Below the pieces are notes generated by a model. The model worked only from the letters and a program-made list of their open reading frames with translations. It did no database searches and was not told the origin of the DNA. The position numbers and the translations under genes were made by a program. This document shows, piece by piece, positions 48,042-62,805 of a stretch of DNA of 64,000 nt. The stretch lies in NCBI GenBank assembly GCA_030272155.1, contig CP126194.1, forward strand, positions 7,299,001-7,363,000, in the 5' to 3' direction. This stretch comes from Tetradesmus obliquus (taxonomy: Eukaryota > Chlorophyta > Chlorophyceae > Sphaeropleales > Scenedesmaceae). Numbering within the stretch: the first letter of the stretch is position 1; each line of letters starts with the position of its first letter.

Positions 48042-51000
48042 ATGCGCAATGCAGTGCTGCTGGCAGTATCGCTGGCGGCTCTGCTGGTCCCCATGACAGG
48101 TGTGATCAGCTGGCGATGCATGCCAACAGAATGTCACAAAACCACAGCAATGTACCTTGGCACATGCTGAATGCCGCCTGATACGCGCGTTTCAACCACA
48201 GCTTAGCACGAGTGCTGCACTGAGGAGTGGGTTGGCGGCTGCTATGTGCATGTTGGTTCCTAAATTTGCATGTGCCAAGACTTTGCAGACAGCTGCTGCA
48301 CAGAGCCACATTGCACATTGTGCCGGCAGACATTGCTTCTGCTTGCAGCGTCGTACAGCAGCACATGTGCACCCTCGGTGCAGAGCCTACCCAAGCCTAA
48401 CCATTTTTTCTGCACCTGCTCCTGCCCCTGTGTATCGGCCTGTTCTGTTCACCTTGCGCCTCATCATCCCCAGCCACAATATGTGAGTGGCTGATGCTTG
48501 CATCAGATGTTCACATGAGTAGAATCAGCCGCAACATCAAGCAGTGTCCTGCGGCGCATGGCGTCACTAGCTGCTTGTCTGTGTGACAGCACCGGCCTGT
48601 TGCAGCAGCCAACCTGCGATGTGCAGCAGCTTGGAAGATCTATTGATGCATACATGTGAGGGTCACCACCCATGGTCTTCACCAGGTAGCTGCAGCGTGA
48701 TTTTCTGCAAAACAGCGGCATCACGCAGACCCGGCTAATGAACAATGCTTGCTTGCTGTTGAAGAATTGATCCACGCATGTTGATCAAATAATGCTGCTG
48801 CTGCTGTTGCTGCTGCTGCCGCCGCTGCTGCTGCAGACCTGCCAGCGCTGCAGGCTGTGGATGCGGAGCTGCAGGCAGAGCCTGGCCCCGTGGCTGCCAC
48901 TGTGGCGCTGTACATGCTGGCGGCTGGCATCGGCTGCTTCTGCTGGGTCTCTTTTGTAAGTATCTATGGTTCAGATCTCTGAACATCCTCAGTATCCTTC
49001 CACCTTGATAGTAGTGCATTGGTTAAAGACAATCATGCCACTCATCACACCATAGCACCAACGCCTTTGGATCCCTGAACATGTATGTCTCAGGTCTCAG
49101 GACATGCCGTAGATGCCGGTGTTTGTTGGCCTGGACTGTCAACGTACCTAGCTGAAGCCGGAATGGCACTGTCACGCGCTGTGACGCAATCCACATATGC
49201 CACCTTTGTTGCTGCAACTTACGCCAGGTGCTGGTGCTTTGCAGGCCGACCGATTTGGGCGGCGGATGGCATATGCCATTGGCTCGTTGCTGTTCCTGGG
49301 GTCAAGCGTGGGCTGCATCTGTGCACACATCATCCGCCTGCTGCTGGGGTTGAGGGCACTGCAAGGCTTGGCAGGTGAGCATGTCAAGGCACTGCAGTTT
49401 AAAAGAATGTTTGGGTGCAAGGGTGTGCCGTGCGAGCAATTGCCAGATTCTTCATTTTTGTTGCTGGGTGTCATTTGCCTGCAAAGGATGGCACGTGTGG
49501 CGGGCGCTGCTGTGCGCTCATGGACGCCTGCATGCTTACGCATTACATTATGCTGCGACCGTATGCATGTTGTCAAGTGACACCCCTCATCATGAGAAGT
49601 GCTGTGCTCCGAGAGTCGCATGTGCATTTTGTGGGCGTGCTGTTGCTGTGCAGTAAACATGACACTGACAGTGACGCTCCTGGCCGCTGCTGCTGCTGCT
49701 GTGTTTGGTGCGGCAACTGGCGCTGCTGCTGCTGCTGCATCACAGCTGCATGCTTCCTGGTAACTGGGCAGGTGCGGGGCATCATAAAATGGTGGTGTGC
49801 TGCTTGCTTCACCTTTGACCCTGTGTGCAAGATTTTAGCATCCACGGCTGCAGTCATGCCTGCACAACGTAAGGGCTGTGCCAATGGAAACTGTTTGTAA
49901 CCTGCAGCCCCACATCAGCGCGATACCAGGGTTGTATCGCAGCTGCTTGTAGCTTCTATATGTGTTAACTGCTGTCATGACTGCTGCAGCACGCAGCATG
50001 CAGTCTGCAACAAACGCATACCTGCTGCAGCTCTGACTGAGCCTCCCCTCTGCTGACACTGCCCATGCAGAGTGTTGTGGTTGATATCTTTGGGCCTGCC
50101 GAGAGGGATCGTGCTGCTCATCTCTTTACAATGCCGCTGCTGGTTGGACCGATGTTGGGCCCTTTGCTGGGAGGATTTCTGTGCCAGGTAAGAACTGCAG
50201 CCTTGCCCGCCACACAAAACCAATCGTCACAAGCCTTGCAACGTGTGAGTTTCATATGTTGCAAGAATTACAGACCCAAACACAGCCATGCACCCAGAGG
50301 TAGGAAAACATCAGCACAGAATGGCTCCTTTGGAGGCTGCTGGCGTTGACCGGCAGGCACACCTTGCTCACGTTCAGAGTTTGCTTGTTGCGTTGACTGT
50401 GCCATGTGCTGCTCTAGTTCAGCATGTTGCTTACTGTGTTGACTGGTTTTTGGGCTGTAATCGGAATATTGGAGATGATACGCTACACCGTTGTAGGTAC
50501 GTGCTGGCGAAGACAATCGCAAATGCCATGTGCATGATTGCACAGCTCGCCGCATAAACCGTTGCAACACTCTGATCAGGGTTGCTGCCGCCTGCATTCG
50601 CTGCATGCAGGCTTGGGGTTGGCAAGCCAGCCTCATCTTCATAGCGGCTGCTGCTGGCGTGGTTGTGCTGCCGCTGCTGATGCTGGTGGTGCCAGAGACA
50701 CACCAGGTGGGCTTGTACTTCATGACATGTTGGTTGACACATCGCCAGGCACATGCACCTGACTGAAGACATGATATGACACCATGTGACATGACGCAAC
50801 ATGATGTGACATGACAAGATGTGACATTGAAATAACATGACATGACATGACATGACATGACATGACATGACATGACATGACATGACATGACATGACATGA
50901 CATGACATGACATGACATGACATGACATGACATGACATGACCATGAACACCTACGTACCAGCATCAGCGGTGCCTCCGCCCAAACCGAACTAGGCGCACA

Positions 51001-52628
51001 AGGCAATCAAGAGATGACCAGCATGTGTGCCGCGATCTCGCATACGGACTACTCGCGACCCAGTGTACGGCAGGTCAATATCCTGGGAGTCACCGGTGTA
51101 ATTTTTACGGAGACAGAACAACAGCTGACAAACTTAGGAGTCAAGGGATCCGCGCTCAAGAAGCTGCTGCGTGACCTGCATTACATCGCCATCAATGGCA
51201 TGGAAAGGATATGGAAGCAGCGCGGGGCACTGCTCAAACACCTGGGCCACCTGAAGCTCAACAACTGCAGCAAAAACAAGAGAGCGAACATGAAGAGGGC
51301 ATTCAAGGCACCAAGCCACCGCAAACACGTCAAAAGACGGAAAAGCTAAACTGGTACCCTGACGGGGCTGACCAAGGATGCCTACCTTGGTCAGCATAAA
51401 CCTCTCCAGGGGGCCGCACGGTCACCTGGTGGAGGGGTAGGGGGTACGGAGCCGGCGACGGCAAGCCTACCCTCGTTCCTTGATTTACGCAGGCTTCCGC
51501 GCCCCTGGCAGCCAGGAGTGCACCTTAGCCTCGCGTAGTCTCTCTCTCTCTCTCTCTCACATGACATGACATAACATGACATGACATGACATGACATGAC
51601 ATGACATGACATGACATGACATGACATGACATGACATGACATGACATGACATGACATGCCAACCAGCGCGCCGGAGCAGCAGCAGCTTTGTCTCAAGCCA
51701 ACTTGTTGCTTTGTCAGGCGCAGCAACCGAGCGCCCCAGGAATTGTTTATGTGCTGCCGCCAAACAAAGAAGGCAGCCAAGACACTGTCTTTCCATGTCC
51801 AACCAAGCAAATGGACTGCTCTTCCTTGATTGACGGCAATGCTCTTCTCTGCTGCAGTATCGCACTGTGCAGCGCCTCCGCACCGCCAACCCAGAAGCAG
51901 CACGGCACCTGGCAGATGCTGAAGCCATCATGTCGCGCCCCCCGACTTTCCGCGCACCTTGTGTGCATCTGAAACATCTGGCAGGCAGCAGCAGCTGGTG
52001 AGTGAGTGAGTGACTACCCAGGCAGCTCTGCAGCTCCTGGGTAAGTTAAGGCTAAGAGGGTGTGTGTGGCCAGGGGTGGCCCCCCTGGGCTCCACACCCT
52101 CTACCCGTCCACTTGTGCCCTAGGGCACTAGCAGCTGGTTGTTCATGCTGCTGACGATGACAGCGTTCGGCTTCATGTTTGCCAGCCTCACAGGTGCGCC
52201 GCTGCTGCCTGATGCTGACTCTCAAGTCCACTTGTGTTGCGTCATAAATCCATTAATCAACTTCATGTATGTTTAGCTGGCAATCACGACGTTTAGCTTT
52301 ATGTATGCCAGCCTCACAGGTGGGCTGCTGCTACTGCCTGCTGCTGACTGAACTAGTGCCGTCGTGTTTGGGGATGCACTGTGCAGCTGCTGGTGCACAA
52401 GCATGGCCACAGAGCAGAGAGCTCCCTGGTTTTGCTTAGCAAGAAAGCACAACTAAGTTACAGAGATTCACATAGATGCCTTGCTTCTTCTGAAAATCCA
52501 ATATAGTCGAAGGAAGTTCTGAGGGAGGCTGACTGAGTACACAACATTGTGCAGCTTGCTGCATGGCGATTGGTCACAGCTTGACAGCTGAGTTGTCACA
52601 GCATGCAGCGTGCTTACACCGCATGGCA

Positions 52629-52665
<37 letters not shown>

Positions 52666-53911
52666 AGTGTGGCCCACTCATCTGGCTGCAGCACCAAGCA
52701 GCTTCAGCGAAGCCAAGATAGGTGAGCCGCATGAAAGCAGCACACTTCGCGTCCAGCTGCATTGCCTGCAAGCTGCATGAATCAGTGCAGTGCAGTGCAT
52801 CAGTGCTCTGCAGGCTGTGTATGCAATCGATTTGCTGTCTGTGTGCATGCAATGCCGCTGCCAACATGCCGTTAATTTCCCTGCATTGCTTGCACCACAG
52901 CAATCAACCAATACTGTGATGGCTGCTGTTTGCAGGTCTGCAGTATTTGGCGCCAGGCATATTTGCGCTTGTTGGTGAGCCGATATATGCAGGACTGCTG
53001 CAGCACAATCTCTGTCATTCGTATTTTGCAGCCAATTTGCCTGCTGTGTTGTTGTCACACCCGCTGGGGCCGGTGACAGCGAGATGTATGGAAACGGCTA
53101 AGAAGAGCAAACTGGTGTTCCAGCTTTTGCTATATGGCTCAAGAATTGCAAGTGTCCAAGCCTCGGCTTTGCAGTGTGAGCATTCCGCGCGATCGGCTGA
53201 CTCAACTGACTGTGCTACACAGATGATACTTTTAAGTTGTTAACTGTGCATGGCATGCATGCATACTGAAGAAGCAGCAGAACATGTACCAAATGTGCTG
53301 CTGCCGCTGCTGCTGCTGCTGCTGCTGCTGCTTGCACTGCAGGAGGTCTCGCCGGATTCCCAATCTCAGAAAGCATGGGTGGAGTGTCTCCGCGCGTGCC
53401 AGAGAACCGGGTGGTCTTCAACTCAGCAATGTTATGGGAGCTGGCACTGATAGGTTTCCCTGTCTTTGGGTATAGGCTTGCGAAAAACGACAGCAACGGA
53501 TATGTCGTTGGCCAGATATTCATTGGTTTTGCAACTGCCTTTTACCTTTCTGCAGTAGTTGCATACAGCATGGCCATCAAGCCGCGGAGCCCGGCAGCAG
53601 CTGCTGCAGCAGTGCATGCTGCTATGTACTGCTTTGCAGGCGTGATGACATACAGCAGTGTGTATGGCGTGCAGCGCATGGGCCTTGGGGGATACTTTTT
53701 GATGTTGGCATTGTTGCAATTTGGGGTAGGAATGACAGTGATCTTTGAGATGTCTGATGCTGAGCACGCTGAGCGTCGCATGGCACGCCGACAGCAGCAG
53801 CAGCAGCAGCGGCGGCAAGGGCGTAATGGCGCTGTGGTGGCACAGCAGGCAGGTAGGGCAGGCCAACAGCAGCAGCAGCAGCAAGCGCAGAATGGCGCTG
53901 TGGTGGTTTAG
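48042..53911 (+). CDS. Major facilitator superfamily transporter, DHA1 (drug:H+ antiporter)-like
   Basis: Exons: to 48099, 48837-48955, 49245-49374, 50071-50187, 50611-50706, 51858-51997, 52135-52193, 52936-52974 and 53343-53911. Membrane segments include LLAVSLAALLVPMTG (TM1), VALYMLAAGIGCFCWVSF, the motif-A-like ADRFGRRMAYAIGSLLF, LLVGPMLGPLLGGFLC, LIFIAAAAGVVVLPLLMLVVPETHQ, LFMLLTMTAFGFMFASLT, and in the last exon MLWELALIGFPVFGY, IFIGFATAFYLSAVVAY and YFLMLALLQFGVGMTVIF. 48042 is the first in-frame ATG; the frame stays open upstream to 47763, so a further N-terminus is possible. Exons 3 and 4 do not meet in phase, so a micro-exon is probably missed near 49.4-50.0 kb. The C-terminus is Q/A-rich. 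Substrate unknown. The intron at 51998-52134 is a repeat element, and a LINE fragment lies in the intron before 51858. Confidence 0.8.
50833..50942. repeat. (ACATG)n satellite, left arm
   Basis: About 21 perfect pentamers preceded by ~70 bp of degenerate units from 50770. It lies inside an MFS intron. Confidence 0.95.
50943..51559 (+). mobile_element. 5'-truncated LINE: reverse transcriptase C-terminus plus 3' UTR
   Basis: An open frame (51014-51349, 111 codons) reads VNILGVTGVIFTETEQQLTN, then LKKLLRDLHYIAINGMERIW and a Lys/Arg-rich end, like the C-termini of green-algal non-LTR reverse transcriptases. The 3' UTR has a hairpin (TGACCAAGG...CCTTGGTCA at 51369-51393) and ends in a (CT)n run. 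Only the 3' ~600 bp is present, as is typical of aborted target-primed reverse transcription. (ACATG)n flanks both sides, so it inserted in the satellite or was duplicated with it. Confidence 0.6.
51560..51658. repeat. (ACATG)n satellite, right arm
   Basis: About 20 pentamers with one change near the start, in the same orientation and register type as the left arm. Confidence 0.95.
52000..52128 (+). mobile_element. Introner-like element forming an MFS intron
   Basis: A 129 bp sequence found again at 60217-60345 with only about seven differences by eye. It is flanked by the direct repeat agcagctggt (51990-51999 and 52130-52139). The donor GT comes from the last bases of the left repeat plus GAGT of the element; the acceptor AG lies in the right repeat. 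Splicing 51998-52134 restores the MFS frame (phase 2 to phase 2). Internally it has two stem-loops, cccaggcag/ctcctggg and gagggtgtg/cacaccctc. Confidence 0.75.
52265..52322 (+). repeat. Echo of MFS exon 7 and its donor
   Basis: Exon 7 ends GCCAGCCTCACAG|GTGCG at 52193. The copy ends GCCAGCCTCACAG|GTGGG at 52319, offset 126 bp, and the similarity continues into the intron. Confidence 0.85.
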
Positions 53912-55085
53912 CCAGTGGCAGGGGGGGGGGCAGGATAACTGGCCCTTGCCAAGGTAGACATTGTCATCAACAGTTATATTTCAAGCCATAGCTTGAGCGC
54001 TTTTTGCCCTGCGCTTCACTGGAGTGGCAGCACGGCCAAATCAGGGAGCACTGCCCCATTGTGTTTGCAAAGGTAGCCCATTCCAAGTGCCGGTGGCAAG
54101 GAGCAGGCCTGGCCTATTGTTCTGCTCGCGGCACACAGCAGACCAAGGCGCGGAAGTGGGGTGCTGGACAAGTGCGCAGGGTGGCTTGATAGAAAGCTGA
54201 AAAGTTTAGCAAGGGAAGGAGGACGGTGGGCGGCGAATGATCACTTGCACATCAGCCAGCAGTCCTGCAATGCGTATTTGCGTCAAGTTGGGTGCCTGCT
54301 GGTGTATCAGCTGCAGCGTATGTATAAGTAAATATCGGCATACATCATGCATAGTATGCAGCCTACTCTGTGTAGCACAACTGGATTTGCGAAACATGCA
54401 CAGCGCGTCAGAGCAATTCATGCACTGATCTGCATGTATACTGGCCGCCAGGCCAGTCCTGCTACTGCTTGCCCTGCATGCGGTGCTGCTGGCGAGACTT
54501 GGTTTCATTTTGAGCTACATTGCCATCTCAGCTTTGAGCATCAAAGCTGAGGCACAGTGTGGCTGCAGAGCTCATGAGCCTACCAGCATGCGTGCTGCAC
54601 TGGAAAACTGTGCAGCCTGTTGACCATGACTGATGTCAAGGTGTTCCTAAGCATCTTTTAGAAAATTTAGGGTTCTAAACATAGCTTAGAGGTGGAGGTG
54701 CTGCGGGTTGTGTTGGATCACAGAGGGGGTGACAATGATTGAAGGGTGACGGAGTGATGTGTCATGATACACCAGCCATGGTGATGCTTACCACTCCAGT
54801 ATTGTTGTGGTTGATGACACAGATTTGTGCAGGTTGGCTGCTAGCTGGCCGATACTTACTGCTTTATATCGCTACGGTTCACCGTAGACTGCAATCTGGC
54901 TGGCTACTGCCAGCTGGTGTCACACTAGGGTTGTTGTCACAGGCGAAGTAACATATGGCGGATGTATGAAGATGTTTCGACGTCGATTATGTGTTTATCT
55001 TAGCTTCGGGGTTACTGCACCTCCTGTCTGCATCTGGCTCGCCCACCATCGCTGGCCGTCGCTTCACACCCACTCCACACCAGCC
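53912..55085. other. Intergenic region with a possible reverse-transcriptase remnant
   Basis: MFS 3' flank and DPH5 upstream region. No TGTAA was noticed here. Apart from the zinc-knuckle fragment at 54440-54550, nothing is recognised. Confidence 0.4.
54440..54550 (+). mobile_element. Fragment resembling the C-terminal zinc-binding end of a LINE reverse transcriptase
   Basis: The frame reads TGRQASPATACPACGAAGET, then WFHFELHC. The CPxCG...ET..H...HC spacing is typical of the zinc-binding segment after non-LTR reverse transcriptases. It is short and isolated. Confidence 0.35.
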
Positions 55086-56770
55086 ATGGTGCTGTACTTG
55101 ATAGGCCTAGGCCTATACGACGAGCAGGATGTCACTCTTCGCGGCCTCAACGCCATCAAGCAGTGCGAGCGTGTGTACTTGGAGGCCTACACCAGCATAC
55201 TGCTCTGTGACAAAGCTAAGCTAGAGGCGCTCTACGGCAAGCCAGTAGTAGTTGCAGACCGCGAGATGGTCGAAAACGAAGCAGATAATATTCTGGAGGG
55301 AGCGGAGACGATAGATGTAGCGTTCCTGGTAGTGGGGGACCCCTTTGGAGCCACAACACACACAGACCTGCAGCTGCGTGCACGCGAGAGAGGCATCCCT
55401 GTGCGAGTAATCCACAACGCATCTGTTATGAATGCCGTTGGAGCTTGTGGCCTGCAGCTGTACCGCTTTGGCGAGGCAGTGAGCATCGTGTTCTTCACAG
55501 ACAGTTGGCGGCCTGACAGCTTCTATGACAGGATTGCCAGCAACCGCCGCTTGGGGCTGCACACGCTGTGCCTGCTGGACATAAAGGTCAAGGAACCCAA
55601 CCTGGATGCACTGGCACGCGGCAAGACTGTGTATGAGCCACCTAGGTACGTCTGCTGTCTGTTTGTGCTATCGGGTATTGGCGACTGCAGGGGTGCAGCT
55701 GCAACTGGTGGTTGGGCGCAGTTAGATTGAGTGGATTGAGTGGGGTTGGCGCAGGGCAAACCGCGACGAGTGCTGAAGTATTCCAGCCAGGCATAGTGCA
55801 GCAGCAGCTATGGCAACGGCAGCACAGTAGCAACTGTCCGGTGCCATCGGGCGGGCTAGGCGGCTGCACTAGTTGGCTGCAGTGTGCCCCTGCTATTCAG
55901 CAACACCACCATCAACAGCCACCTGTCAAAGCAGCTGCATCTGCCACTCACAGCAGCTGCTGCTCGTTCCAGCTGAAGGGGCTGCAGCTACGGAAGCAGC
56001 CTGCTGGCCTCCCTGCCAGTTGCTATGTCACTCACTCATGTCCTGCCACTGCTGCACACCGCCCCTGCCCTGCTCCTACTTGCTTGCGTAACTGGCCAGG
56101 TACATGAGCATCAATGCAGCGCTGCAGCTCTTGATCAATTGTCCTGCCCTTAACCAGTAATGCATGTCACTACTGCACGCCTCTTTGCCCCAACTGTATT
56201 TCACATCTCTCCTGCAACCGACCGCAGGTACATGAGCATCAACACAGCACTGGAGCAGCTGCTAGAAGTTGAGGCAGCACGCAAAGAGGGCGCATACAGT
56301 GAGGAGACGCTCGCCATCGGCATGTCGCGGCTGGGCTCGCCCGACCAGCAGATCGTGGCGGGCAGCATGGGGCAGCTGCTGCAGCAGGACTTTGGGCCGC
56401 CGCTGCACTGCCTGGTCATTGCAGGTGCTTCGGCATGGCAGCCGGCGATGTATTTGAACAGACTGCGCCCAGTGTAGTGGTGCATGTTGTGCACAGAACA
56501 GCAGTGGAGTGCAGTGCAGTGGGATGCGCAGCATATGCCAGTGCACTGAGTGTCCAGGGCAGAGGCAACGCAGCAGCAGAGGCTACACATTGTTGCAGGC
56601 ACCTACCAGCGCTGGAACTGAGATATGGGACATCCAGAGTGCTCTGTTTTTAGCTGAAACTTGCGGTGTTGCTGCTGCTCTTACTGCTGTTGCTGCTGCT
56701 GCTGCTGCTGCTGCTGGCTGCAGGGGATGTGCATGTCATCGAGGAGGAGATCCTTCAGTTCTACCGCACA

Positions 56771-56801
<31 letters not shown>

Positions 56802-56848
56802 AGCAGCAGCGAGGCGAGCAGCCAGCAGAGCAGGCAGGGGAGCAATAA
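55086..56848 (+). CDS. DPH5: Diphthine methyl ester synthase (DPH5)
   Basis: Exons 55086-55645, 56228-56424 and 56724-56848 join in phase to 293 residues, close to the usual ~285. It starts [20 protein letters not shown], the family's N-terminal SAM-methyltransferase signature. Other hallmarks are [98 protein letters not shown] and [13 protein letters not shown]. The enzyme methylates the diphthamide precursor on elongation factor 2 in the cytosol, using S-adenosylmethionine. After the conserved end it carries a short Ala/Gln tail from a CAG run. Exon 2's start has an echo at 56100, and exon 3's acceptor is directly preceded by a CTG tract. Confidence 0.96.
56097..56160 (+). repeat. Echo of the DPH5 exon 2 start with acceptor
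   Basis: GGCCAG|GTACATGAGCATCAA (junction 56100) mirrors the true CCGCAG|GTACATGAGCATCAA (56228), offset 128 bp. The copy keeps a usable AG and reads [13 protein letters not shown]. Confidence 0.9.
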
Positions 56849-57628
56849 CACTTCCAGCAGCTGCATGTATGCTGCGTTGCGTGACTGCTGGAAGATTGCA
56901 GCCTGCAGTGCATCTGGCGCTGCTGAGGAAGTCTCGCATGGCCTCTGTGCTACTGGCTCAGGTGCTCAGCAAAGCACTTTCAAGCTTGATGGCATACGCT
57001 GCTGGGCAGCAGTGTGGCGGCTGCACAAACATGAAACTGTATTTTTACATCGGCCTGTGGCTGCTGGCAGTGCTCCTGCCTGATGATGATCAGCAGTGTC
57101 GTAGAGGTGCACGCCCCCTGGCGACAGTCTTGCATATAACCGGTCGCTGAGTGCTGCCTCAGCAGTATCTGGGTCGTGCAGGAGGCGGCAAGTTGTGTGT
57201 TGGGATCGGGCTGTGGCTGCGCAGTGTTGCGTATGTTCTGTGGCATCACTGCAGCTGTGAGCTGGCTGACAGCGGTAACGGACGGATGCATGATGGCTCC
57301 GCATGATGCTTTGTGTTTCAGTGGCTTGTGCTCACGTGATGATACGTTGAAAGCAACTAAAACCCGCAATGACCTGAACACTGGAGGTTACATTGCCTGG
57401 TGACACCTGGCACGCACTAAGTTCATTCAGCGCCAAATGCAAAACGGTGCTTGTAAGGAGTGTGTGCTTTGATTTGTGATCAGTACAGTCGCTTCCGACT
57501 TGTGCTGTCGCTGCACTGCTGTCTCGGCACAAAACACGTCGACTTGCTTGGCCAAAAGGCGTGTCCCCACTCAGGGCAGAACAGCACATTGAACGCTAAC
57601 ATTAAATCAAACTCCGCTGAACAACAGC
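56849..57628. other. DPH5 3' flank and PEP-mutase-like upstream region
   Basis: 780 bp with no gene recognised. A 213-codon plus frame ending at 57150 is a shadow of DPH5 exon 3 and repeat sequence. Confidence 0.4.
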
Positions 57629-59542
57629 ATGCATACAGTGAAGTCTGCTTGCCACAGCAGTGGCATCAGCAGCAGCAGTCCTGCAAGCAAGGCATGGCCC
57701 AGGGCTCGTAGGGGCTGCATCGTGCTAGCAGCCAAGTCGCCATCTCGCACAGATGCACTGCGGGAGCTTCTCAAAGGGCCGCAGATCCTCAAGGCAAGCT
57801 GCCTGGGCAGACACAAACCATTGTACTGCTGTTACACTGGCCAGTTTGCACAGCAGCAGTCCCACACAAAAAGCAAATGGCACACCCAAGAAAGGGGAAA
57901 TTGCATATCTGCCACTTCCAGTTCGCACAGCGTAAAGTTAATCGCAGGTGGTGACCCATGCGTATGCCTGTAGATGATGAGACATGTTTGCATGCATATG
58001 CGTCTTGCTGTTTACAGCAGCTCTGGCACATCACTAGCTTGCGTGCAAAGCAACTGCCAAAAACAGCACCAGCAACCATGAACGTACTTGTTAATGCTGC
58101 AATGTTCAACTGTGCTGTGCTTGCAGGGCCCCTGCTGCCATGATGGGCTGAGTGCACGGCTCATTGAGAGGGCAGGTGCGCCCATTATCATACATACCCA
58201 ATGCAGCATCTCCGGCAGCAACACAGCATCAGCATAGCAGCAGTGTTTGGAGCAGCAGAGGCGGCGCCGCTGAGGCAGCTGTGATGCATTGTGCAGGGTG
58301 TGGCTCCGCACGCGGGGGTGGTATGCATAGCAGTGTGCAGTGCTCTGGTGCGTTTAATTTGCTCGCAGCTGCTGCATGGCCACCACAACTGCCGCGCAGC
58401 AAGCTACACATGAAGAACCATCTGGTGATGTGCATGTACGCTGTTCAATTTTAAACAAGCCTGCCAACTCCTAAAAACGCAGCAGCTGGCAAGGATCCCT
58501 TGGCCCGCTTTGCCAGAGCAACTCCTGCAGCCAACATTATGGAGGAGGCGCGCGTGGCCGCATATTGTGCTTTGTACCCCCTGCATACGGCAGCCGTCTG
58601 TGATGAACATGCACTTAGCGGCTCACAGAACCAAAACATGCTGCTTAAACACACCTCACAGGCTTTGATTTTGCCTTCATGAGCGGCTTCTGCACCGCCG
58701 GGGCAAAGCTGGGCGCGCCTGACACGGGGCTGCTCTCCTACGCAGAGATGGTGGACACGGTGCGTGGTGTGGGGGTGACCGTGGTGTGTGTGTGGGTGGG
58801 GTGTGTGGGGTGTGTGGGTGTGTGGGGTGTGTGGGTGTGTGGGGTGTGTGGTGGTGGCAGGCGGCATTGCTGTTGACAATGGGCCGGCACTGTAACACGT
58901 CCGCAGTGCAGCCTAAGATTATGTGGGTGATCAGTCACGGCACCCACCTGATGGAGGGGCAGCTGCCACCGCATGTCCCTGCTGAGGAACTTTCAGCAAG
59001 TTGACTATGCAAACTTGGCGTACCAATTACAACTGCTGTTTGCGAGCTGCCTGTCGCATGCATGTGGCTGCTCATCCAATGCTGCGTGCGCATGGGTAGC
59101 TGAACTTGCATGCCCGCTGATCGTCCTTGCGTCTCTCCTGCAGGGCCGCTACGTGCATGAGGCCACAAAGCGCATCCCCATCATTGGTGACGGCGACACA
59201 GGGTGCGCGGCAGCGGCAGCAGCAGCAACAGTGGCAGCGGCAGCAGCAGCGGCAGCAGCAGCAGCAGTGGCAGCAGCAGCGGCGGCAGCAGCAGCAATGG
59301 CAGCAGCAGCGGCGGCAGCAGCTACACGTCGTGATTCTCCTTGAAAATATTCACTGACATGCAGCCAGCATTGGTATCCCAGCAGTATGGCCCCGGCAAG
59401 TGTCTGGGCAGGACTGCAGTGACGATTCATTATTCATATGTTGCTGTTGTTGCCGCAGGTACGGCAATGCAATGAATGTCAAGCGCACCGTGAGGGGCTA
59501 TGCAGCAGCAGGATTTGCAGGTGAGGCGCTGACAAGAGGCAA

Positions 59543-59591
<49 letters not shown>

Positions 59592-59620
59592 GTGTGACAA
59601 GCAGCCGCAGCAGGGTTTGA

Positions 59621-59688
<68 letters not shown>

Positions 59689-59903
59689 GTTTGCAGGTGA
59701 GGCGCTGACACCAAAAAGGAGCGCAGCCGCACAAGCATACATGGATGCATGAACACACCCATGCAGGCTGCAGGTGATGTTCATGTGCTTGCCTGGGCTT
59801 TGCTGCTGCTGTTGGCGCAACATCTTGACAGCACCAGCACCCCAATTGCTCGCACTGCCAGGGCTGCTGCTGCCTACTACAGCTGTATTGTGACCAACGC
59901 ATC

Positions 59904-59972
<69 letters not shown>

Positions 59973-62805
59973 CATCCTGATTGAAGACCAGGCATGGCCC
60001 AAGTCGTGTGGGCATGTGCGGGGCAAGCGCGTGGTGTCACGTGAGGAGGCGGTCTCACGCATCCGCGCTGCAGCAGACGCACGGTGAGGCCACACGCACA
60101 CAACACACACAACACCGGCTGCTGACTGGCTGCTCTTACCGCCTTGGATCTCTGCGATTGAGGCAAATGCGATCCCGTGCGGCTTGAACAACTCTCTTTG
60201 CTAATTGCGAGTGATCGAGTGAGTGAGTGACTACCCAGGCAGCTCTGCAGCTCCTGGGTAAGTTAAGGCTAAGAGGGTGTGTGTGGCCAGGGGCGCCGTC
60301 CCTGGGCTCCACACCCTCTACCCGCCCACTTGCGCCCTAGGGCACAAGCGGGGCGTATTGTTTGCGTGCGCTCATTTAAAGCGTGGCTTTTTGCGCTGGT
60401 CTGTTTCGCCGGTGCCGTGCTGTCGTTTCTTGGCTGCTAATTGCGATGTCCTGCTCGTTCCTACTGCTTTGTCTTGTCAATCAAACTTGCACTACTGATG
60501 ACCCCCGTTGCTGTGCCTTGTTTCCTGCCTCGCAGTGATGAAGGCGCAGACATTCTCATCCTGGCCCGCTCTGACGCCCGCCAGGCTGTGAGCCTGAATG
60601 AGGCCCTAGCAAGGGCCCCTAGGCATGCTGGCTGTTCTGGCATGCTGCTTTTACGATGCTGATAACAATGCCCTGCTGTTCTCTTTGCAGATCCGAGGGC
60701 TCTGACATCCTCATCATGTATGGCTGGCTCAATAGAACTGACAATCAGGTTTTCTGCCTGCGCTTTATTGCGACGCTTGCAGTGATGAGGGCGCAGACAT
60801 CCTCATCCTGGCCCGCTCAGACGCCCGCCAGGCGGAGAGCCTTGACGAGGCACTGGCAAGGGCCGCCGCCTTTGCTGATGCTGGGGCCGACATGCTGTTC
60901 ATTGATGCGCTGGCCAGCAAGGAAGAGATGCTGGCCTTCACACAACTGGGCGGCGCGGCTGCGGGGCTGCCCAAGGTAAGTCATGTTGGTCTGCACATGC
61001 GGCTTGCAGGCGTGTTTGGTCTTCATTGTGGTTGCCTAGAACAGAGGTGTAGCATGTGCTGTCACCGCTGCCTTTTTTGCGGCTGCGTGGCGCGGTTGCG
61101 CGGCTGCTCAAGGTGCGTAGGCTTGAGTGCACACAAGATGCTTTGCTCGCAAGGGTTGCGCCTTGTGTTGTGTCTGTAACCTGCTACTGCCTTTCAACTG
61201 GGGTGCAGCAGCTGAACGCGCTGTTGGCATGCCATTTGGCGGGATAACATCCACGAAGCCAATCGTACAACGTGTCTGCAGCAGATAGCACTAATTAACT
61301 GCCACACACTTCACCTCTCTGCCGATGGCCAACATGCTTGACGGCGGCGGCAAGACGCCCATCTCGCCACCCGAGGAGCTGCAGTTGTAGAATGCACAGC
61401 AATCCCCAAGGCCGCCGACACAACACATGTGTGATGCATCATCAGCACTCAGAATCAAGTACTCACCACCTGCCTCGCCTGTCTGCAGATGGCCAACATG
61501 CTTGAAGGTGGCGGCAAGACGCCCATCCTGCCACCCGAGGAGCTGCAAGCAATGGGCTTTAAGCTGGTGGCCTACCCGCTGTCGCTGCTGGATGTGCATT
61601 TGCTGCTGTCAGACGCTTGCTGCTGCTGCTGCTGCTGCTGCTGAGGCGGCTGTCATGCATGCTGCCAGTGAATGACACTGCGTGGCATCCTGCCTGACTT
61701 ACCTGCCTGCAGATGGCCAACATGCTGGAAGGCGGCGGCAAGACGCCCATCCTGCCCCCGGAGGAGCTCCAAGCAATGGGCTTCAAGCTGGTGGCCTACC
61801 CCCTGTCACTGCTGGGTGTGTCGATCCGGGCCATGGAGCGGGCCCTGGTGGGGCTGAAGGCCGGGCAGGTGCCGGATGTGCGGGACACGGGCACATTTGT
61901 GGACATGCAGATGGCGGTTGGCTTCCCGGTGGGTGTTATGTTGGAGGTTGTTTTGGGAAGGTTCTTGTGGGAAGGTTTTGTGGGGAGGTTATGTGGGGAG
62001 GTTCTATGGCTTTTGGCTTGCGAGCACATTAGTGCTCTGGACACTTCGGGTAAGAAGACCGCTAAAAAGATGCCCGCTAAAAAGAGTTTTGGCACGGTTT
62101 TGGCAGCCTCTGTGCATGTGTGTTGTGCCAGCACGGAGGAGCGTGCATGTGAGCATATGCTAGGTGTTGACCATGCCTGAGTCTGCTGCTGCCAATGCTC
62201 TATATATCTGCCCCCTCTCTTGCTGGCTGCTTCTGTTGCAATGATGTGTCCTTGCACCATACAGGAGTACTATGAGGAGGAAGCCCGCTATGCCATCTCA
62301 GCCCCCAGCAGCGGCACCAGCCCAGCAGCAGCAGCTGCGAGCAGCAAGCCAGACAGCAGCAGCAGCAGCAGCAGCAGCAGTGCGCCGTACGTGTCAGGCT
62401 TTGGCCCTGGTGCTGCTGCAGCTGCTGCAGCTGCAGGTGCAGGTGCGGCATCTGCCGCAACTGCAGCAGCCGCCACCAGCGACAGCAGCAGCAGCAATCA
62501 ACAGGAGCAGCAAGAGGACGAGCCGCCTCGGGGTCCTGTTGTAGAGGCAGATGAAGTTGTACCGCCTGAGGGCAGCAGTACATTTGGCAGTACAACAGGC
62601 AGTACAACAGGCAGTACATCAGTCACCAGGCAGTACAGCAGTGAGCAGGAGCGGCAGGCGCGCTGGGATGCGTTCCGGCGCAGCAAGTTCTTCAGGGTTG
62701 TGATCAAGGACAAGCGCACCGGCGTGGTCAAGCTGGAGACGCGCATCCCTGCTGGCTTCATTGGGGGCATGACCGCGCTCATCCCACAGGTGCGTGGCAT
62801 AGTGT

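Follow-up and report, generated by a model that had tools for sequence, protein, structure and literature searches.

In Tetradesmus obliquus, a truncated LINE copy that lies antisense in an MFS transporter coding exon most likely functions as a new intron, since its antisense tail offers a row of donor sites and the duplicated target offers an acceptor AG. The LINE identity of the insert, its truncation, the target duplication, the exonic position and the availability of splice options that keep the frame are established by the sequence; we infer that the spliceosome uses the donor at 51998 with the acceptor ending at 52134 or 52131. The window analysed (64,000 nucleotides, numbered from the first letter) belongs to contig C4 of a genome of 104.66 Mb in 17 contigs, and the named proteins nearest to its MFS gene come from T. 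obliquus and Scenedesmus sp. NREL 46B-D3.

A Truncated LINE Copy in an MFS Exon

The upstream part of the interrupted exon (51858-51997, + strand) starts after TGCAG and ends ...HLKHLAGSSS plus two nucleotides; a genome search with the T. obliquus orthologue P0001 matched C4:7350852-7351001 (window 51852-52001) at 86% identity. The insert (L001; 52000-52129, - strand, antisense to the MFS gene) lacks its 5′ part and carries a (TCAC)n 3′ tail at about 52000-52012, where the + strand reads GAGTGAGTGAGTG. Copies of the target-site duplication agcagctggt, found in the sequence and by script, occupy 51990-51999 (containing the candidate donor GT) and 52130-52139 (containing the candidate acceptor AG). 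The downstream part of the exon (WLFMLLTMTAFGFMFASLT; 52135-52193, + strand) matches P0001 at 83%, ends at a donor, CAG/GTGCGC, and probably corresponds to TM7, as judged by eye.

P0001 reads LAGSSSWLFML and aligns without a gap over the insertion site, and the best genome matches for every part of P0001 are exons at the MFS locus. Because SSSWLF is absent from the canonical splice products tried for the MFS allele, it is most simply accounted for by an empty site. The preliminary description of this stretch had reported the direct repeat at these positions and a mobile element with a target duplication in a coding exon; both observations hold, P0001 being without the extra residue of the insertion. 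From three differences over 124 nt relative to the majority of 30 copies, the MFS insertion is judged to be young. The other MFS exons that were judged by homology are open; a TGA occurs in one P0001 match among them, at a point where by eye this match extends beyond the exon. The sole spare for the interrupted exon is a diverged copy of its 3′ end downstream. Two CATGA pentanucleotide arrays (50795-50987 and 51509-51711) lie just upstream of the exon, and a gene downstream of the MFS gene (54888-56474, + strand) resembles diphthine synthase (DPH5) in its translation, inspected by eye.

The candidate spliceosomal intron is of the GT-AG type and extends from 51998 to 52134 (+ strand), with another acceptor that ends at 52131. 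As had been proposed from the sequence, the GT at 51998 falls in the first duplication copy and the AG at 52133-52134 in the second, and removal of 51998-52134 preserves the MFS frame; the end 3 nt upstream, at 52131, works too. Nine junction-proximal GTRAG/AG pairs were tried, and the frame was open only with donor 51998 and an end at 52131 or 52134; the predicted products, SSSCSWLF or SSSCWLF, have one or two residues added to the SSSWLF of the empty site. The other donors of the MFS gene are GTGAGC (twice), GTAAGA, GTGGGC and GTGCGC, and the acceptor side of the insert (cccTAGggcactAGcAG) has a poor pyrimidine tract. A skip to the downstream half-copy of the exon (52276-52343) was rejected by eye as out of frame with donor 51998.

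The Repeat Family and Its Parent Element

On sequence evidence, the repeat is the variable-length, 5′-truncated 3′ end of an autonomous non-LTR retrotransposon. A 40-nt core gave 205 genome matches at up to three mismatches (106 forward, 99 reverse), and a reversed control pattern of the core gave none genome-wide. The set examined comprises 87 copies, of which 71 came from loci of 3.0-4.8 kb and 16 from loci of about 0.5 kb; nearly all were drawn from best-matching listings, which biases the set toward young copies, and about 118 of the 205 core matches lie outside it. The preliminary description was built on 52000-52128 matching 60217-60345, and this 129-bp match is real (95% identity). A repeat unit of 129 bp was rejected: the 87 copies have one end in common, which reads (GAGT)n in the orientation of that description and is the (TCAC)n tail when reversed, and extend or stop at many points at the other.

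This opposite end ranges from about 61 nt (the shortest well-supported end, in L030, with an 11-bp duplication) up to a 10.9-kb element; 75 of the 87 copies are shorter than 300 nt, and four extend past their loci beyond 1.5 kb. A 54-nt end in L038 was rejected as a truncation, being an internal deletion misread by the script, and the end of L088 is unreliable, its locus sequence ending early. Ends cluster at reference positions 98-105 (29 of 87 copies), just beyond predicted stem-loop 2, a GC-rich hairpin, and this sharp peak may reflect a preferred reverse transcriptase stop or a SINE-like short form. Ten of these 29 copies have a CTACCTG-like end and 14 have CTACCCG; for the 44 longer copies the figures are 9 and 30, and the split possibly marks a SINE-like subfamily or a fixed reverse transcriptase stop.

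Flanking duplications, which the preliminary description had expected of further copies, are present in the family: direct repeats with a score of at least 8 surround 52 of the 87 copies (8-17 bp, median 11), and the same script, given another copy's right flank, found a direct repeat in 4 of 431 pairings. Scores below 7 were obtained for 29 copies, six of them with less than 40 nt of right flank; the script missed the second window copy, whose repeat was found by eye. That copy (L022), previously taken to end at 60345, is a longer truncated LINE copy at 60211-60435 (- strand), whose right end carries a few untemplated bases and which has its own 11-bp duplication at 60200-60210 (GCTAATTGCGA) and 60436-60446. 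By eye, its surroundings are exon-like stretches of an isocitrate-lyase-like gene, and it seems to be nested in a larger intron, not coincident with it.

Internal stem-loops had also been proposed. Two are indeed predicted in the orientation of that proposal (52013-52046, with little covariation, and 52055-52102); support from covariation did not follow, a two-sided compensatory change being found in 1 of 45 predicted pairs (30 copies, that orientation only), which is too weak to favour or oppose the structure. An Rfam search of window 51800-60600 returned 12 sub-threshold matches, none over either LINE copy, and a known structured RNA was rejected on these grounds.

Two long copies, one on C5 and the other on C17, align in two blocks (10,398 and 475 bp, about 10.9 kb in total) at 99.4% identity; the C17 copy has about 1.4 kb extra between the blocks. 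This near-identity suggests recent activity of the LINE family. The C5 copy has a single stop-to-stop frame of 3648 aa with its first Met 95 codons in, and the C17 frame is broken into two. The frame in L040 contains RVT_1 (E 8e-20) and, upstream of it at residues 368-615, Exo_endo_phos (E 5e-9), used as the test for an APE-type endonuclease; the C5 frame has these two domains as well as PCIF1_WW and RNase_H, with a PHD finger below threshold. Four features expected of a LINE were found: a reverse transcriptase, an APE-type endonuclease upstream of it, target duplications of variable length and, in the 87 copies, a 3′ end that is constant and a 5′ end truncated to varying degrees. Target-primed reverse transcription leaves recognised hallmarks, and from these we infer that it is the mode of spread.

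A search with the reverse transcriptase region gave 251 proteins at E 0.001 or better; among the 120 of these matches listed, many are from Haematococcus lacustris (reverse transcriptase, endonuclease, RNase H and often PF02099) and many others come from metagenomes or transcripts, PCIF1_WW being present in a good share of the latter group. The H. lacustris LINE polyproteins, as here, combine endonuclease, reverse transcriptase and often RNase H in one giant polyprotein and are 43-53% identical to this LINE over the reverse transcriptase region (mostly 46-48%). The Haematococcus entries listed often have PF02099 and no PCIF1_WW, the relatives with PCIF1_WW being metagenome or transcript entries, and this LINE is recognised by its (TCAC)n tail. 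Clade names in use for LINEs include L1 and RandI/Dualen. PCIF1_WW lies at residues 2063-2201 of the LINE frame in L040:3-8753, and many metagenome or transcript relatives share the domain. PCIF1 is a cap-adenosine methyltransferase; in a literature search on PCIF1, judged by titles and the starts of abstracts, none of the papers listed concerned this domain in LINE proteins.

Donor Motifs in the Tail and the Placement of Copies

Every one of the 87 copies carries two or more GTGAG motifs within its tail or next to it, one GTGAG being contained in the search core itself. In an unbroken tail the motif recurs every 4 nt, so that all three phases are stepped through. The consequences were simulated with 39 truncated copies (duplication score at least 9, shorter than 300 nt) placed at random positions in four exons; success was a GTRAG no more than 18 nt from the 5′ junction and an AG near the 3′ junction, with the frame kept and no stop. 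A frame-keeping GT..AG arose in 1317 of 2340 antisense placements (56%), in 11 of 2340 sense placements of the same copies (0.5%) and in 19 of 1500 random genomic inserts (1.3%); these figures score GTRAG and AG in phase alone, with branch site and pyrimidine tract outside the scoring, and speak to splicing potential, not splicing. In a first simulation the counts were 801 of 867 for antisense and 33 of 867 for sense, and shuffling the tail gave 18.6% on average (range 0 to 96.9%); these values hinge on its fixed 10-bp duplication length.

A mechanism can be proposed in which a long autonomous LINE inserts by target-primed reverse transcription, often leaving short 5′-truncated copies that carry a (TCAC)n tail at the 3′ end and are flanked by target duplications of about 8-17 bp. 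One of these entered the MFS coding exon antisense, and there the mRNA strand of the tail, GTGAGTGAGTGAGT, would present tandem 5′ splice sites, 4 nt apart and much like the gene's own. The 4-nt spacing of this row would bring all three reading phases within reach, the duplicated target would supply the AG, and the spliceosome would most likely excise the insert, either as 51998-52134 or as 51998-52131, so that the frame survives with one or two extra residues. It is a doubtful, more speculative step to regard the 4-nt tail as an intron-making device and the family as a source of introns by reverse transcription, one whose sense copies are eliminated from exons and whose antisense copies are tolerated there. 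If that were true, about half of antisense exonic insertions would be spliceable in frame, and the tail would be kept partly because it reduces harm to the host.

Joined flanks at 71 sites have a median open frame of 103 aa (antisense to the LINE) or 97 aa (sense), compared with medians of 105 and 109 aa at control positions in the same flanks. There is no excess of open frames at these LINE sites, four of which had no right flank, and coding exons are therefore not enriched among the 71 sites tested; the comparison addresses coding exons, not genes as a whole. The further genome copies for which the preliminary description proposed a search do exist, as the 205 core matches.

Two copies in conserved exons, L001 and L028, were recognised among the 71 loci by composition score and by eye. 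Both are antisense, they have one end only in common, and no full spare exon copy was found near either. The amino-acid composition score, used after a codon-usage coding model was dropped for its poor separation of check exons, is insensitive (the MFS exon of L001 was not flagged), and exonic copies may be missed. The L028 copy is 653 nt long and lies in an exon conserved in the six homologues found; five are gapless across the insertion point (GDHRGPEHAV or near), and P0087 diverges there. Several splice options for L028 are open, for example REGDQRLDGDHRGPEH, and many others are not; the acceptor CCACAG with the first donor was rejected as out of frame on computation. A relative of the L028 gene on C10 gives an uninterrupted match to P0082 residues 2-116, spanning the site, which could make loss of the L028 gene tolerable, and L028 could simply be dead.

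Three further copies fall in tandemly repeated exons, each breaking up a single member; L010 and L070 are antisense and L050 is sense. Tandem single-exon copies, with exons identified by eye, occur within genes of the window (52150-52217 and 52276-52343; 60511-60617 and 60758-60864; 61305-61820) and at loci L010, L050, L070 and L062, and seem common in the genome; several LINE copies fall within one such repeated exon or next to it, and spare exons may make exonic insertions tolerable. The window also contains a larger tandem duplication (about 30.4-32.7 kb and 35.5-37.9 kb), its blocks 5.1-5.2 kb apart and 75-89% identical.

Alternative Readings and Known Systems

The insertion may instead have disabled the MFS gene, the fragment being retained in the mRNA and a stop arising before the next membrane helix, so that the gene is a pseudogene in the making. 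Retention of the insert leads at once to a TGA (SSSW-stop); further points in favour are the weak acceptor region, the young age of the insertion, and the end of the P0001 protein soon past this point. Since the other homology-judged exons are open, the donor is as good as the gene's own and two canonical outcomes keep the frame, we regard loss of the gene as possible but unlikely, and removal of the insert as an intron as the probable outcome.

The preliminary description had assigned the repeat to a true introner family, that is, short non-autonomous elements spreading as introns. The 29 of 87 copies that end at positions 98-105 do resemble a short SINE-like unit, and two exonic copies have splice options that keep the frame; however, the sequence is the truncated 3′ end of a LINE into which the copy ends run on, open frames at the 71 sites do not exceed those at control positions, and an intron seems to surround the second window copy, all of which makes this assignment quite improbable. 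A DNA transposon (MITE) with inverted repeats, suggested by the target duplications and the internal inverted repeats of the 129-bp sequence, was rejected and has almost no likelihood, because the duplications vary from 8 to 17 bp, the copies have only one end in common, and the repeat has a simple-repeat tail and is continuous with a reverse transcriptase gene.

Introns made by transposable elements are already known; the complement of a LINE tail as an all-phase donor row is new. One account describes a coding intron derived from a SINE in rice catalase A and the "intronization" of Alu elements in human 3′-UTRs (PMC2394776). Unlike those cases, the element here is a truncated antisense LINE, and tail and target duplication together form the tandem GTGAG row that would supply its donor; the human examples lie in UTRs. 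Introners, according to a second paper, are mostly consistent with DNA transposition and are recognised as at least four alike introns with similarity reaching near both splice boundaries (PMC9860276). As presented there, they resemble L001 in that an element enters a coding exon of an aquatic alga with a target duplication, codons are added, and the splice sites come partly from the duplication; they differ in having similarity near both ends, whereas the LINE copies vary in length and spread by reverse transcription, and in that exons are not enriched among the LINE sites tested (PMC9860276). The words Tetradesmus and Scenedesmus are absent from the main text of that paper, and literature searches judged by titles and the starts of abstracts, with most subscription papers outside their coverage, listed nothing on intron donors supplied by a LINE tail and nothing on introners in Tetradesmus.

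Antisense LINE copies with donors in all phases would provide a simple route from ordinary retrotransposition to intron gain. The donor-row model predicts antisense exonic copies, better splicing with longer tails, and presence/absence variation between strains, and for the question of how a LINE may become an intron the window offers one clear locus.
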